From Antedon mediterranea (lineage: Eukaryota; Echinodermata; Crinoidea; Comatulida; Antedonidae), in the NCBI RefSeq assembly GCF_964355755.1, contig NC_092672.1, positions 33,910,501 through 33,974,500 of the forward strand: a stretch of 64,000 nt of DNA, given 5' to 3'. Positions 38,060-47,985 of this stretch are shown here, one piece after another. The notes under the pieces are model-generated. The model was not told the DNA's origin. It was given only the letters and a program-made list of their open reading frames with translations, and did no database searches. The position numbers and the translations under genes are program-made. Within the stretch, counting starts at the first letter, position 1. Each line of letters starts with the position of its first letter.

Positions 38060-38995
38060 TTAATAACAATCATTAAAAGATGAGAAGCCAAAGGCAATGT
38101 TAAATTAATATAAGGGAAAATATTAGAACTAGACGAATTTAACCAAAAATATAATTTTAAACCAGACTTCTTATTATATCACCAGATTGTAAATTCAATT
38201 CCAAAGCTCTGGAAACAGAAATTAATTGAACAAGGTATAAACACAACTAATGAAGTTGAATCCAAATTACAGACATTCATTTCTGTGAAAACGAGAAATT
38301 GTCATTATATCTATAAACACATTATATTAAAAAATGTTGAAGAGCCAATTGGAATTGAATCCAAATGGGAAAAGGAGTTTGACAACAAACTTAATTGGAA
38401 AAACCTTTTCTCAAATTTACACGCCTGTACAAATGACACTAAGCTAAAAAATGTTCAATTTAAATTTATTCATCGTATAATTTATACAAATACAATGCTC
38501 TTTAAGAGGTCAAAGGTCGATTCACCAATGTGTAGTTTTTGCAAGGAAAAGCAGGAAACACTGCTACATATGTTCTTTGAATGTGATCTGGTAAAGAACA
38601 TTTGGGAAAATGTAAAACAATATATGTATCGAAATATCAACAATAACTTAATTATCACCAAAGAAAGTATATGTTTTGGTTTTGGAAAAACACACAGTGA
38701 TGCAAACATTTTAATTTTAATTACAAAGTGGTACATATTTAGTTGCAAAATCAAAAAACAATTACTTAATTATAATCATTTATTTCACATTTACCAAAAA
38801 TACAAGGCAACCATATTATTAGCAAAATGATTATTATTAAGTGTATTTTTGCGATACATTATTTTTTTTTTCTTTAATTTCATTACTCTCTTATTTTTGA
38901 GAGAGTATTATATCGTTTTAATAGTTACGTTGCCTTTATATATTAATTTTGTATTATGTATGTGATGAAATGAAATAAAAAAAAAAAATAAATAA
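38060..38995 (+). mobile_element. 5'-truncated LINE, reverse-transcriptase C-terminal region
   Basis: The frame up to 38830 encodes a C-terminal RT region with a zinc-finger-like CSFC...HMFFEC motif followed by IWENVK, typical of zf-RVT in L1-type LINEs. Further same-sense matches start upstream of the ATG at 38285 (SIPKLWK, LQTFIS). The unit ends in an A-rich tail with AATAAATAAAT at about 38975-38995. RT catalytic and endonuclease parts are absent, so it is a dead insertion. Confidence 0.8.
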
Positions 38996-39261: not shown

Positions 39262-39320
39262 TGGTGAGTTTAATCAAAGAATATATATCACAAGAATGAG
39301 TAATCCGCGATTTTCCCTGT
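39262..39320. repeat. Outer inverted repeat, left member
   Basis: GAATATATATCACAAGAATG followed by AGTAATCCGCGATTTT is repeated inverted at about 45757-45806, outside the palindrome arms. The two members are not equidistant from the axis, so this is a separate, older inverted pair. Confidence 0.65.
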
Positions 39321-39811
39321 AACAGTAATATTGTCCATGTGGTAGGGCGCCGCCATAAGTGTGGATGTATCTGGGATGTATACAACTTTTTGTGACGGTT
39401 TCACTAATCAAAGGCTGGACCACCGGTAGTATTTTGATAAAAAATGTTATCAACTACATGCCAACATCATGTTAAATACTATTTGGATATTTAATTGTTC
39501 GTTTTATGCAATTTATTTAGTAAAAACTGCCGTATAAACAGTTTGCTTTATCAACCGGGCGCTACAATAGCGTGACCGGGCGCGATTTTTTTTTTCGTAC
39601 ATAAGTTGGGGACCCCCTCATGAAACGTCACAAAATAAACATGAATAATTCATCATTTAAAATTAAAATTATAGTTTCTATTAATACTATTAGGCCTAAT
39701 TATTAGTCTCTAAACCCATGTCTATTCTAGTAGTAGCTGTGTGGGTGTGTGTGACGTGTGTGTGTTAGATATGACCAAACTATCTTTGGTATGACACAAT
39801 CCGAGTAATAA

Positions 39812-40533
39812 GTCAGCAAAATTAAACAATAAACATTACAGAAAAATACATTTTTTATTCTGTGAGTCAAATCTTCCCATCTCATGTGTTCATATACGCG
39901 CATTTTTAAAGTTCCTTTGAGTACATGCATATTGTTTGATAATAAAATAGCAGAATTAAAAAAATACATTGCACAAATTATACACATTCTTTATTCTTGT
40001 GGGTCTAAGCTTTCTTTGGGCTATGTCCAATGAATTACTACTTAGTTTAATGTCTTGCCTAGCTGTCGATTAGCCTCGACTCGACACATTTTGTGTGAAG
40101 AGTGCGCGAAGGCAATCACGTGAATTGACTTAGAATCCTAGGCCTACTGTAGAAAGAAAGTATCGTATCGCAGTTGTGTAGGCCTAGGATTCTAAGTCAA
40201 TTCACGTGATTGCCTTCGCGCACTCTTCTTTTTCACACACACACACACACCACTATGCAAAATGTGTCGAGTCGAGGCTAATCGACAGCTAGGCAAGACA
40301 TTACACTAAGTAGTAATTCATTGGACATAGCCCAAAGAAAGCTTAGACCCACAAGAATAAAGAATGTGTATAATTTGTGTACTGTATTTTTTTAATTCTG
40401 CTATTTTATTATCAAACAATATGCATGTAATCAAAGGAACTGCGCGTATATGAACACATGAGATGGGAAGGTTAGACCCACGAGAATAAAAAATGTATTT
40501 TTGTGTAATGTTTATTGTTTAATTTTGCTGACT
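39812..40533. repeat. ~720-bp palindrome nested in the left arm
   Basis: Centred near 40163: GTCAGCAAAATTAAACAATA, GGGTCTAAGCTTTCTTTGGG, TAGCCTCGACTCGACACATT and TAGAATCCTAGGCCTA all return in inverse order. A CA-dinucleotide run (40240) interrupts one side. The mirror copy is at about 44305-45026. Confidence 0.85.
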
Positions 40534-40537
40534 CTAA

Positions 40538-42022
40538 AGGCTGGTTTCCTGTCGACGTAAGAACATCACTTTTGTTGCGACTACGTCGATTTGTCGTAAG
40601 AAATGCGGATTTTACAGGAAACCGATTACGATCGAAAATTTACAAAATCGACGCAACGTAAGAAAAATGGTAACGACAAACGATTTTACAGGAAACCGAT
40701 GACCTAACAATTATTGCGTTACGACGTTTTCTTCCGATTTTACAGGAAACCGGGATTTTTGATCTTACGCTTGAATGAACGCCCTTGCGTCACGTTTCTT
40801 ACGTCTCTTACGAAAGTTGACTTGAAGTCAACTTTCGCAAGAGACGTAAGCGCAATCGTAACAAGCAACCAATGAGCGACAAGAGTTATGACGTAATGTG
40901 TATGTCCTTATAGTGAAATAAAGCCGGACAATAACATTTGTATGTATTTACTACTATAATTTTAGCCCACTTTACGATGTTGTACATACTTTACAAATGC
41001 ACAGTAGTTTCAATATAGGCCTAATAATGTTCTAATCAGGGAGTTTACAGCTCATATCAAAATCTAATACTCTTATTTATGGACGTGCAATAAACAATCA
41101 GCATCGGTAGAAACGTCACGAAAATGAACATTTGCAACAAGATAAGATATAGAAAGCCCCTTTGTAAGCAATATAATATTATTATGTAACTTTTAAAAAA
41201 AATTGTTTGCTTGATTTTGTATAATTTATATTGTTTTGTTAAATTTATTCTTATTATAGGCCTGTAAATAATGGATATCTTACTGCGGTAGTACTATCTC
41301 ATGCTCGATTAGAGTATGCCTGGGCCCATAGGCCAAGGCCTAGCCTAGGGCCTAGGTAGGTCTAATAATAATAGGAATCCCGAAATGATTTGCCTTTTTT
41401 TAATTTTGAAAACTATTTAAGGCTAGGCCTAAAGGGCCAGTATAATTCATTCATATTTTGATTCATACAATAATACATAGGCCTACTAGCCTAGGCTCCT
41501 TATAGGCTAGTTTGATTAGATTTTGGTCAAATCAATTCCTATTAGTACAGTATTAATTAAGTATTATTACTAATACTAGGGCCTAGCCTATCTACTAAAA
41601 ATAATATGTTGGTGTGCTGCACTGACACTGATGCTGAGTTGCACTGACACTGATGCTGAGTAGCTACAGGTACAATAACATCATTCAACATTTCGCGCGA
41701 AAAATGATAAAACCCGCTCTAAAAAGAAACACCAATCAGAGATGTTGTTTCAAATACGTCATAAATCTGACCGACGTAAGAAAAAAATTTCAACTTTCGT
41801 AACAACACTAAAATCGACGTAAGCATACGACGTGTGTTTCACAGCTAAAATTTCAACTTTCGGGAGCAGCATAACTACAGATGTTTTTCTGCGGCCCGAC
41901 ACGATCTTGACTAACGTCAACGACGTCAATTTTTTCTCAACTTTCGTAAGAGACGTAAGAAACGTATGAAACGCAAGAATCGTTGCAAAATTCGACTTCT
42001 TACGTCGACAGGAAACCAGCCT
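40538..42022. mobile_element. Nested transposon, ends AGGCTGGTTTCCTGTCGACG (left arm)
   Basis: A 1.49-kb element with terminal inverted repeats AGGCTGGTTTCCTGTCGACG (plus TAAGAA) and TAA on both outer sides. Subterminal copies of GATTTTACAGGAAACCG occur three times. It has no long frame. Its insertion must predate formation of the inverted dimer because both arms carry it at mirror positions. Confidence 0.75.
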
Positions 42023-42815
42023 TAACACACACGTCACACACACCAACACAGCTACTACTAGAATAGACATGGGTTTAGAGAATAGTAATTAGGCCTAATA
42101 GTATCAATAGAAACTATAATTTTAACACGTAATTCTTTAGTAATAAATTATATTAAACACACCATAAACTAAAGGCTGATTATTTCGACAATCCACACAA
42201 AACGCCGCTATTCTATTATGAAATCGCACGCGGCAACCACAGCGGAGATAGGCCTAGAATCCGTACCGCACTTGTGTAAACTACTGTAATCACTTCTTGT
42301 TGTTGCTATACGCTTGGGTGCACACGGAACAAGAAAATTTAACTGATGAATTATTCATGTTTATTTTGTGACGTTTCATGAGGGGGTCCCCAACTTATGT
42401 ACGAAAAAAAAAATCGCCGGTCGATTTTTTTTTTCGTACATAAGTTGGGGACCCCCTCATGAAACGTCACAAAATAAACATGAATAATTCATCAGTTAAA
42501 TTTTCTTGTTCCGTGTGCACCCAAGCGTATAGCAACAACAAGAAGTGATTACAGTAGTTTACACAAGTGCGGTACGGATTCTAGGCCTATCTCCGCTGTG
42601 GTTGCCGCGTGCGATTTCATAATAGAATAGCGGCGTTTTGTGTGGATTGTCGAAATAATCAGCCTTTAGTTTATGGTGTGTTTAATATAATTTATTACTA
42701 AAGAATTACGTGTTAAAATTATAGTTTCTATTGATACTATTAGGCCTAATTACTATTCTCTAAACCCATGTCTATTCTAGTAGTAGCTGTGTTGGTGTGT
42801 GTGACGTGTGTGTTA

Positions 42816-44300
42816 AGGCTGGTTTCCTGTCGACGTAAGAAGTCGAATTTTGCAACGATTCTTGCGTTTCATACGTTTCTTACGTCTCTTACGAAAGTTG
42901 AGAAAAAATTGACGTCGTTGACGTTAGTCAAGATCGTGTCGGGCCGCAGAAAAACATCTGTAGTTATGCTGCTCCCGAAAGTTGAAATTTTAGCTGTGAA
43001 ACACACGTCGTATGCTTACGTCGATTTTAGTGTTGTTACGAAAGTTGAAATTTTTTTCTTACGTCGGTCAGATTTATGACGTATTTGAAACAACATCTCT
43101 GATTGGTGTTTCTTTTTAGAGCGGGTTTTATCATTTTTCGCGCGAAATGTTGAATGATGTTATTGTACCTGTAGCTACTCAGCATCAGTGTCAGTGCAAC
43201 TCAGCATCAGTGTCAGTGCAGCACACCAACATATTATTTTTAGTAGATAGGCTAGGCCCTAGTATTAGTAATAATACTTAATTAATACTGTACTAATAGG
43301 AATTGATTTGACCAAAATCTAATCAAACTAGCCTATAAGGAGCCTAGGCTAGTAGGCCTATGTATTATTGTATGAATCAAAATATGAATGAATTATACTG
43401 GCCCTTTAGGCCTAGCCTTAAATAGTTTTCAAAATTAAAAAAAGGCAAATCATTTCGGGATTCCTATTATTATTAGACCTACCTAGGCCCTAGGCTAGGC
43501 CTTGGCCTATGGGCCCAGGCATACTCTAATCGAGCATGAGATAGTACTACCGCAGTAAGATATCCATTATTTACAGGCCTATAATAAGAATAAATTTAAC
43601 AAAACAATATAAATTATACAAAATCAAGCAAACAATTTTTTTTAAAAGTTACATAATAATATTATATTGCTTACAAAGGGGCTTTCTATATCTTATCTTG
43701 TTGCAAATGTTCATTTTCGTGACGTTTCTACCGATGCTGATTGTTTATTGCACGTCCATAAATAAGAGTATTAGATTTTGATATGAGCTGTAAACTCCCT
43801 GATTAGAACATTATTAGGCCTATATTGAAACTACTGTGCATTTGTAAAGTATGTACAACATCGTAAAGTGGGCTAAAATTATAGTAGTAAATACATACAA
43901 ATGTTATTGTCCGGCTTTATTTCACTATAAGGACATACACATTACGTCATAACTCTTGTCGCTCATTGGTTGCTTGTTACGATTGCGCTTACGTCTCTTG
44001 CGAAAGTTGACTTCAAGTCAACTTTCGTAAGAGACGTAAGAAACGTGACGCAAGGGCGTTCATTCAAGCGTAAGATCAAAAATCCCGGTTTCCTGTAAAA
44101 TCGGAAGAAAACGTCGTAACGCAATAATTGTTAGGTCATCGGTTTCCTGTAAAATCGTTTGTCGTTACCATTTTTCTTACGTTGCGTCGATTTTGTAAAT
44201 TTTCGATCGTAATCGGTTTCCTGTAAAATCCGCATTTCTTACGACAAATCGACGTAGTCGCAACAAAAGTGATGTTCTTACGTCGACAGGAAACCAGCCT
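42816..44300. mobile_element. Nested transposon, mirror copy (right arm)
   Basis: Mirror image of 40538-42022 about 42419, with the same ends. Confidence 0.75.
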
Positions 44301-45756
44301 TTAGAGTCAGCAAAATTAAACAATAAACATTACACAAAAATACATTTTTTATTCTCGTGGGTCTAACCTTCCCATCTCATGTGTTCATATACGCGCAGTT
44401 CCTTTGATTACATGCATATTGTTTGATAATAAAATAGCAGAATTAAAAAAATACAGTACACAAATTATACACATTCTTTATTCTTGTGGGTCTAAGCTTT
44501 CTTTGGGCTATGTCCAATGAATTACTACTTAGTGTAATGTCTTGCCTAGCTGTCGATTAGCCTCGACTCGACACATTTTGCATAGTGGTGTGTGTGTGTG
44601 TGTGAAAAAGAAGAGTGCGCGAAGGCAATCACGTGAATTGACTTAGAATCCTAGGCCTACACAACTGCGATACGATACTTTCTTTCTACAGTAGGCCTAG
44701 GATTCTAAGTCAATTCACGTGATTGCCTTCGCGCACTCTTCACACAAAATGTGTCGAGTCGAGGCTAATCGACAGCTAGGCAAGACATTAAACTAAGTAG
44801 TAATTCATTGGACATAGCCCAAAGAAAGCTTAGACCCACAAGAATAAAGAATGTGTATAATTTGTGCAATGTATTTTTTTAATTCTGCTATTTTATTATC
44901 AAACAATATGCATGTACTCAAAGGAACTTTAAAAATGCGCGTATATGAACACATGAGATGGGAAGATTTGACTCACAGAATAAAAAATGTATTTTTCTGT
45001 AATGTTTATTGTTTAATTTTGCTGACTTATTACTCGGATTGTGTCATACCAAAGATAGTTTGGTCATATCTAACACACACACGTCACACACACCCACACA
45101 GCTACTACTAGAATAGACATGGGTTTAGAGACTAATAATTAGGCCTAATAGTATTAATAGAAACTATAATTTTAATTTTAAATGATGAATTATTCATGTT
45201 TATTTTGTGACGTTTCATGAGGGGGTCCCCAACTTATGTACGAAAAAAAAAATCGCGACCGGGCGTGTTGGTGTTTACGCGTTTTCACGTAGGATAGTTT
45301 AATAATATTCCTATATTTAACTTGTTTCTGGTAAAACAAATAAATGTTAATGACATTTAACATTTTTTCCTATTAATAACATGTATTTTATACTAATTTA
45401 TATCATAAAAACAATACTTAATTTACCGGGCGTAGAGGAGTACACGGGCAATGGTAAAGAATAGGCCGTGCTGAGTAACGATTCGTTGACTTTTGGTGTT
45501 GCTGTGTTAGGCCTTTTTTGTGAACTAACTTAGCATGTTAGTAAAAAATTGTCTGTAAAAGTGAATGTACACTAGTTTGTTAATAAATATGTATTATAAA
45601 ATAGTTTACAATTGCAAAACTATTATCATAATTCTATTTAATGTGACATGTATAATATCTATTAAATCAAGTCTTATTTGTATGGATGTATACATCCGCC
45701 CTTATGAGGGCGGGCATCACTCTCTGGAGCTAGCTCTATGTTACAAATTTCTCATG

Positions 45757-45806
45757 CAAAAATCGCGGAATACTCATTCTTGTGATATATATTCTTTGGT
45801 TTAATA
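45757..45806. repeat. Outer inverted repeat, right member
   Basis: Reverse-orientation match to 39262-39320 (AAAATCGCGGAATACTCATT, CTTGTGATATATATTC). Confidence 0.65.
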
Positions 45807-47410
45807 CATGGTGCTCTACCGCCATATCTATACAAAATACATAAGCACAGTCTAGATAATACTAAATAGGAAGCTAAAACCGCTAAAAGTTCAATCTGTA
45901 GTCGAATAGGCTTAAAGAATTAGGACGAAAGAAAATCGGGTTTGATCGTTCACCTGTTCAATGACGATGTTGTTCATGTAGTACCATAGGTGTTGCAGTG
46001 GGTCTATTGATGAGGTGGCCCATCAATCATTTTAAGATAATTATATTGTATTTTTGTTTTTATTTGTAGGTCATTACAAGAAATTTAACCTAAATCGCAA
46101 GTTCTTTTGGACCTAATTCTAAAACTTGTGGATGAAGAAAAATAATTCATATAAAAAGATGCACTGCTGGCTTACTGGAGTCTATTGAGTCTGCGCGCTA
46201 TGGTGCTCCCCAAAATCTTTCTGGGATATTATTATTTTTTCATCGTAGCTTTGGAGCATCGGTCCATCAAACAATAGTAAGAACTAATACAACCGAACCA
46301 AAATATTATTTTGCATAAATAAAATGTTGATTCAAATTTGTAGAGTACTAACACACATAAGACATGGAGGTATCTATTTTTATACCTCCATGCATACGAT
46401 TTGCTACCGTGCGTATTATTTTGACGATTTGATTGGTTGAATTAACTGGTGGGGTTAACAACCTCTAGAAACATTTTCACTTTACTCTAACGTCTCTGCG
46501 CATGCGCACTTTACACGCTCGGAATAATAACTACCGGTGGAAAAGAATTATAATTTTACTACCGTTATAATTCTTTGGTCTTGTGTGTATTTTTTAATTC
46601 ACAGTGCATCTGCTCAACGAGAAAGCATCAAACTTTTTTTACAGGTGATTTTAGGAAATAGTTTAAGAAAATAGGCCTACCGATTATTGGTTGTATCATG
46701 CATGAAATTTAGGCATATGAAATCAATATTGTTTATAATTTGATTATTAATATGATATAACAAAAAAAAAGATTGTATCAATAGGTATACATCAATTGCC
46801 AATTATATCATAGAATAATGTGCTACACATAATAAATGTTCAACAATTCATATGTATTTTTACAAACATATGGATTTTGCGAATTTTATTAATTATTAAT
46901 TTTGAGTTTAAATAATTTAACTAAATTGTTTAGCAAAAACAACTCTTATGGAATTTATTTTCAAAATTAGTGTCCATTTTCGCTTCCAATTTTTATCATC
47001 AAAGCAATTATAATATTTATTTTGTTAGGTTTGTCTAGCTTTTTACATTTTAATTGACCATGTCGTGCTTCATACTTTTAAAACTATTGAGCAAAAATAA
47101 TGCAGATTTCTTCTGATTTTTTTATTGATTCAAACGACTTTTTGTTTTTTTATCGGCTAATCCACAAGTGTTTGTACCATTTCTGTGCTTACTATGTAAG
47201 TATACGTTTAAATACGATATCTATCGACATAAATCATTTATGGTTTTGAGGATTTTACAGGATGTTTTCATCATCTCGATTTGTTTTTATTACGACGTTT
47301 CATCAAACTGTTTGAAGAATTTTATTCCACATTGTTTTGTTCACAGTCGATTGCTATGACGTTATCATTTTTTCCCACGTTTATTCTTATTAGATAAGTA
47401 TTGAAGCTGA
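45807..47410. other. Unassigned AT-rich region
   Basis: No gene supported. Small hairpins are visible: GGAGGTAT...ATACCTCC near 46365-46392 and AAAGAATTATAA...TTATAATTCTTT near 46540-46576. CGCATGCGCA lies near 46498-46507. Confidence 0.4.
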
Positions 47411-47678
47411 ATGCATCAACTACGATTTTGTTTTCATCAAGATTTTGTTTTCATCAACTACGAGTTTGTTTTCATCAAGATTTTGTTTTTATCAACTACG
47501 ATTTTGTTTTCATCAACATTTTGTTTTTATCAACTACTAATTTTGTTTTCATCAAGATTTTGTTTTCATCAAGATTTTGTTTTCTTCAACTACGATTTTG
47601 TTTTCATCAAGATTTTGTTTTTATCAACTACGATTTTGTTTTTATCAACTACGATTTTGTTTTTATCAAGATTTAGTT
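47411..47678 (+). repeat. 21-bp minisatellite (ACTACGATTTTGTTTTCATC)
   Basis: About twelve units with variants ending AAG instead of AACTACG. The array resumes at 47986 after a SINE. Confidence 0.95.
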
Positions 47679-47985
47679 TTGGAGTGGAGCTGTGGCTTGG
47701 TGGTTATGATGCTTGGCTACCAATCTAAGGGTCCTGGGTTCAAGTCCTGTCATATGTCAGGGTTTTTTTCTCATGACAATTTACAACTCCACTCCCAAAG
47801 ACTTAATAATAAGTCTTTGTCTATGTAGAGCATCTTGTGTATATGTTTGTCTTATATGTTCTAGTGCAGTATATGGAGAGCCATCTCGATAGTGCTTTGC
47901 ACTCATGGCAATCCTCAGGGTGCTGCACCGCTGTGTTGTCATGTATGTTTGCCTGAAAATTAAATAAAATAAAATAAAATAAAAA
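47679..47985 (+). mobile_element. tRNA-derived SINE inserted in the minisatellite
   Basis: The head has an A-box-like TGGCTTGGTGGTTATGATGC and a B box GGTTCAAGTCC at 47737-47747, as in tRNA genes. A ~200-bp body (CTCCACTCCCAAAGACTTAA, AGAGCATCTTGTGTATATG, GGTGCTGCACCGCTGTGTTG) follows, with a TAAAA-repeat tail. Inverse copies are at 54649-54962 and, rearranged, at 22430-22830. Confidence 0.85.

Follow-up and report, generated by a model that had tools for sequence, protein, structure and literature searches.

The palindrome in the window, the 64,000-nucleotide stretch analysed here (C3:33910501-33974500), is an inverted transposon dimer whose two identical arms lie end to end within one 9-bp target site duplication (TSD). 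We give about an even chance to its having arisen by sister-chromatid transposition, or hybrid element insertion, into the TSD of the element itself, with trimming of the axis afterwards. A wider reading, which we hold more tentatively and at somewhat below even probability, is that long head-to-head palindromes arise recurrently in this genome when members of the MULE-like E family transpose by alternative ends into their own TSDs, the inverted 9-bp TSD being the signature of such events. Genome-wide searches covered the 354-Mb assembly of 18 contigs. The features of the dimer and of related loci are collected in Table 1.

Table 1. Features of the dimer (window positions) and related loci of the E family (contig positions).
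Feature	Position	Strand	Remarks
Left flank	39269..39573	.	Belongs to a high-copy host repeat bounded by inverted ends of ~46 bp
Left TSD copy GACCGGGCG	39574..39582	+	9 bp; adjoining element end one G short
Arm A	39583..42416	+	Putative non-autonomous MULE-like element E with nested element inside
TAA target duplication, left of nested element	40535..40537	+	Single TAA at the empty site in L009
Nested element in arm A	40538..42022	+	1485 bp, TIR AGGCTGGTTTCCTGTCGACGTAAGAA, >30 further copies in genome
TAA target duplication, right of nested element	42023..42025	+	Empty site in L009
Axis CCGGT	42417..42421	.	With the following C, CCGGTC, six bases of CGCCCGGTC
Arm B	42422..45256	-	Identical inverted copy of E, outer end full
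Nested element in arm B	42816..44300	-	Mirror of 40538-42022
Right TSD copy GACCGGGCG	45257..45265	+	9 bp
Right flank	45266..45804	.	Rest of the host repeat
Class 1 loci	C1:15100, C4:29758750 cluster, C5:6469836, C7:5200038, C8:20071518, C11:13647937		Central T direct
Class 2 locus	C1:35931292		Separate neighbours 22 bp apart
Class 2 locus	C6:20266631-20268424		Arms 83%; central 9-mer unlike outer TSD either way round

The original prediction, that the arms match base for base around an axis at 42419, was borne out. Two methods agreed on an inverted repeat (39576-42416 and 42422-45262) with a 5-nt spacer and that axis, and alignment of the element arms proper (39583-42416 and 42422-45255) gave 100.000% identity over 2834 bp without gaps. 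The log10 probability of 2834 paired bases arising by chance is about -1576 at window composition, and chance is ruled out as the source of the palindrome. The further claim that each arm is a complete element with its own ends held in part. Element ends were found at both outer boundaries and that of arm B is complete, but the left outer end of arm A lacks one G beside its TSD, the ends at the axis are trimmed, and the arms are not simple elements, as a second element is nested in each. Rfam and tRNA scans of the window gave no matches. Elsewhere in the window are a low-complexity tandem repeat (47401-47728), with FVFINYDFVF in overlapping frames, and a remnant of a LINE reverse transcriptase C-terminus (zf-RVT; 38285-38830).

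The ACCGGG noticed earlier on both outer flanks is present and belongs to the 9-bp target duplication GACCGGGCG. When the flanks were joined at one GACCGGGCG, they gave an uninterrupted match of 97-99% to 40 scored copies of the host repeat, and eight empty paralogous sites read AGCGT-GACCGGGCG-TGTTGG, with the 9-mer present once. The whole dimer therefore lies inside one ordinary 9-bp target duplication, and the match to the empty sites indicates that adjoining flank was neither lost nor gained. Two identical inverted copies between direct outer TSDs, the arrangement that characterizes sister-chromatid transposition and hybrid element insertion, were thus found at 39574-45265. The host repeat has more than 500 candidate copies, and its inverted ends of about 46 bp lie at 39269-39314 and 45759-45804 in the window; ACCGGGC recurs in it near the insertion (39554, 39575, and 45425).

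The outer element, E, has the termini GCGATTTTTTTTTTCGTACATAAGTTGGGG and TIRs of at least 84 bp that are 96-98% identical, and a pattern search detected 698 perfect 29-bp E-type ends in the genome. The TSD was exactly 9 bp in 28 of 31 two-ended spans, with a single mismatch in one more and failure in the other two, and the 9-mer consensus is palindromic and GC-rich (G-N-C-C-N-G-G-N-C). Mutator-like elements habitually have 9-bp TSDs and long TIRs. E has both, and by these sequence features it is provisionally assigned to the non-autonomous, MULE-like DNA transposons. The assignment is provisional because the searches turned up no transposase associated with an E-type TIR: among 36 MULE-domain matches in the genome, none of the four loci read had an E-type TIR nearby, and P-type transposase matches exist, with no matching TIR at the loci checked. 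The four longer family members that were read (2.6-5.1 kb) contained no recognisable transposase frame; a 7.5-kb candidate on C1 lies outside that set. The P superfamily was first suggested for E by apparent 8-bp shared flanks with a CCGG core and was rejected, the family TSD being 9 bp rather than 8 bp (or the 7 bp of Galileo), and the hAT superfamily was rejected since it needs an 8-bp TSD. Five equal-scoring 651-aa MULE-domain frames (C2:1382286, C2:15352026, C3:9339044, C5:1627366, and C11:21020252) likely represent a recently active autonomous family, and the one locus read among them (L071) had no E-like TIR. Three equal-scoring 794-aa frames with a P-type transposase RNase H domain (C1:2823415, C3:37950354, and C8:6208861) likely also belong to recently active elements.

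The nested element has the ends AGGCTGGTTTCC. A copy of E on C4 (L009) is free of it and carries TAA once at the corresponding empty site. A 3-bp TWA target duplication, as in PIF/Harbinger elements, thus flanks the nested element, which appears to be PIF/Harbinger-like by the length of this duplication. A palindromic dimer of the same nested family was observed at C3:19339986-19342823 (L076). Its arms are 94.9% alike, and both fall about 70 bp short of one end at the axis, where they are joined at AGACGTCT; it is another inverted dimer, of a different family and perhaps of a different origin than the E dimer.

Since the arms are identical and carry the same nested insertion, one arm must have been copied from the other. 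The original prediction had favoured either a head-to-head insertion or a very recent inverted duplication. Of the two, the evidence favours duplication in situ of a single insertion over the arrival of an unrelated second copy: the nested insertion is common to both arms, and what is left of the central TSD matches the outer TSD in reverse complement. As to single 2.83-kb copies elsewhere, there was no composite among the matches scored genome-wide; E alone occurs in near-identical form on C4, and the nested element has many copies. Leaving the nested element aside, E and the C4 copy align over 1348 bp with 4 gap positions and 0 substitutions. This near-identity implies that E moved very recently, and it supports a recent age independently of the identity of the arms. 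With zero differences over 2834 bp, divergence between the arms is at most about 0.001 substitutions per site (95% upper limit), and the young age holds unless gene conversion kept the arms alike.

The axis reads AAATCG-CCGGT-CGATTT, and the CCGGT, taken for a remnant from the start, can be identified as a trimmed TSD. With the next base it forms CCGGTC, which occurs in the inverted TSD CGCCCGGTC and is absent from the direct TSD GACCGGGCG (chance 0.027); owing to the trimming, the orientation of the central T depends on 1-2 informative bases. About six bases appear to have been lost from the axis, and we infer that a long palindrome cut and rejoined at its centre would account for this loss.

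Junctions at which two E-family ends face each other at short distance numbered 12 in a genome-wide search that used an exact pattern and therefore under-counts older junctions. At six loci (class 1), the neighbours, which either are about 85-93% alike or differ in build, are not sister copies, and the central 9-mer equals an outer TSD in the same orientation, as read from one outer flank only at several of them. From these sequences, the class 1 loci are best described as one member inserted into the TSD of another. Two loci fit neither of the other kinds (class 2). The two class 3 loci, the window dimer and C3:8111349-8113552, have sister arms. The arms of the latter are 98.9% identical, which alone is no proof of sister copies because other copies reach 98-99%; however, they have three sites in common that differ from the two nearest other copies, and they are therefore sister copies. 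At the centre of this locus (C3:8112440-8112450), TACCGGGCC is the exact 9/9 reverse complement of the outer GGCCCGGTA, a match with a chance of 0.001 under TSD base frequencies. The central T was inverted at 2/2 sister-armed vs. 0/6 non-sister loci (Fisher p = 0.036, a guide only, as the classes were drawn after inspection of the data). Other arrangements were also observed. At C8:20071530-20073413 (L058, L059), two inverted members 22-23 bp apart have one common outer TSD, GCCCCGCCA, and so resemble a composite that moved as a whole; a third member adjoins. At C4:29757840-29760610 (L053, L054, L062), three members lie end to end, with the same direct 9-mer at both junctions and in the right flank.

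These patterns would be explained if the starting point was a single E, with the Harbinger-like element already nested in it, inside a target duplication T of the host repeat (L-T-E-T-R). After replication, the transposase would bring together two E ends from different sister chromatids, a left end from one and a right end from the other, and this hybrid pair of ends would insert into the right-hand T. By bookkeeping, two outcomes would be possible: a parental chromatid plus a circle, or L-T-E-T'-E'-T-R. The second would be an inverted dimer in which the arms are necessarily identical, the outer T is direct and the central T is inverted. A few bases at the axis would have been lost later, for example when a hairpin or cruciform centre was cleaved and then rejoined. 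In a token model of the outcomes, the observed order was reached directly only by alternative-ends transposition; the central T is always direct when an element simply inserts into a TSD. The inverted-T model draws on the two sister-armed loci, of which the window dimer is trimmed at its centre, and it gives no account of the missing G at the left outer end.

The main rival to sister-chromatid transposition is a nested self-insertion followed by a crossover between the arms. E, either excised from the sister or a near-identical copy, would have inserted inverted into the right-hand TSD, leaving the central T direct; recombination between the arms would then have flipped the centre, with gene conversion keeping the arms identical. 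Long inverted repeats recombine, and if the arms of a simple nested dimer crossed over, the central T would be inverted as well. Members of the E family often insert into the TSD of one already present, as the six direct-T loci indicate, and the palindromic TSD consensus makes a good target. This route, however, requires two steps and needs both sister-armed loci to be in the flipped state, and half of its products should be direct tandems, whereas none of the 12 end-to-end junctions is a sister-armed tandem; we regard it as unlikely, though not strikingly so. A dimer made elsewhere could instead have moved as one unit by its outermost ends, in which case the central bases would be left over from its former site. 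The outer TSD suits a whole unit, and C6:20266631-20268424 and C8:20071530-20073413 look like co-moved units. The exact inverted 9-mer at C3:8111349-8113552 argues against macrotransposition, as does the CCGGTC at the window axis, which likewise fits the inverted outer TSD, and such an origin seems quite improbable to us.

An inverted duplication formed during repair or replication is judged to be just as improbable as macrotransposition. Either the sister would have served to repair the gap left by excision, the template being switched from one inverted TIR to the other and the ends being joined at the axis, or a replication fork would have folded back in error. The trimmed axis resembles end joining, the long TIRs supply homology, and the nested-family palindrome L076, joined at an internal point, may be such a case, but the clean 9-bp central T and exact element ends at C3:8111349-8113552 point to joints made by a transposase. 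Least probable by far is an artefact of sequencing or assembly (a missed adapter, a fold-back chimera, or a misjoin in repeats), even though perfect 2.8-kb palindromes are a known form of artefact and the flanks sit in a high-copy repeat. Assembly error is unlikely because the two flanks form one continuous host repeat, uninterrupted when joined, and its empty form exists in eight paralogues; moreover, the boundaries are element ends within a 9-bp TSD, the axis departs from perfect symmetry, and the arms have diverged at a second, older locus of like build. The earlier preference for a true inverted dimer over a missed-adapter artefact is upheld on these grounds.

Sister arms together with an inverted central TSD may provide a signature that can be read in ordinary assemblies; in the literature searched, an inverted central TSD was apparently not described as a trace of sister-chromatid transposition. 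If the signature is true, past sister-chromatid transpositions could be counted in any assembly and their natural frequency measured; sister-chromatid and hybrid-element transposition have so far been known from genetic screens in maize and Drosophila. The dimer also suggests a route from ordinary transposons to multi-kilobase palindromes, which break and rearrange chromosomes, and a way to separate true palindromes from missed-adapter artefacts in long-read assemblies.

Two inverted transposon copies at one place are known as double Ds in maize and double P elements in Drosophila (e.g., singed-weak), and they are unstable. Double Ds has one copy inserted within the other; the copies of the window dimer instead adjoin at their ends, separated by an inverted TSD remnant. 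Alternative and sister-chromatid transpositions have been described for Ac/Ds in maize and for P in Drosophila (PMC3744419), and the product of a hybrid element is an inversion flanked by two identical element copies (PMC2775673). As in sister chromatid transposition of Ac/Ds and hybrid element insertion of P, ends on sister chromatids would act jointly here, and the product would be an inverted segment between identical inverted copies. Unlike in those systems, inversion would here have affected no more than the element's own 9-bp TSD, the transposon is MULE-like, and the event has been deduced from an assembly rather than observed. Galileo, a member of the P superfamily with 7-bp TSDs (PMC2775673), and other foldback-type transposons resemble the E family in their long TIRs, mostly non-coding copies and rearrangements between copies. 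In contrast to Galileo, the window element has a 9-bp TSD, and its palindrome comes from dimerisation and not from TIRs alone. The window dimer is a genuine and informative structure, yet one assembled from known reactions.
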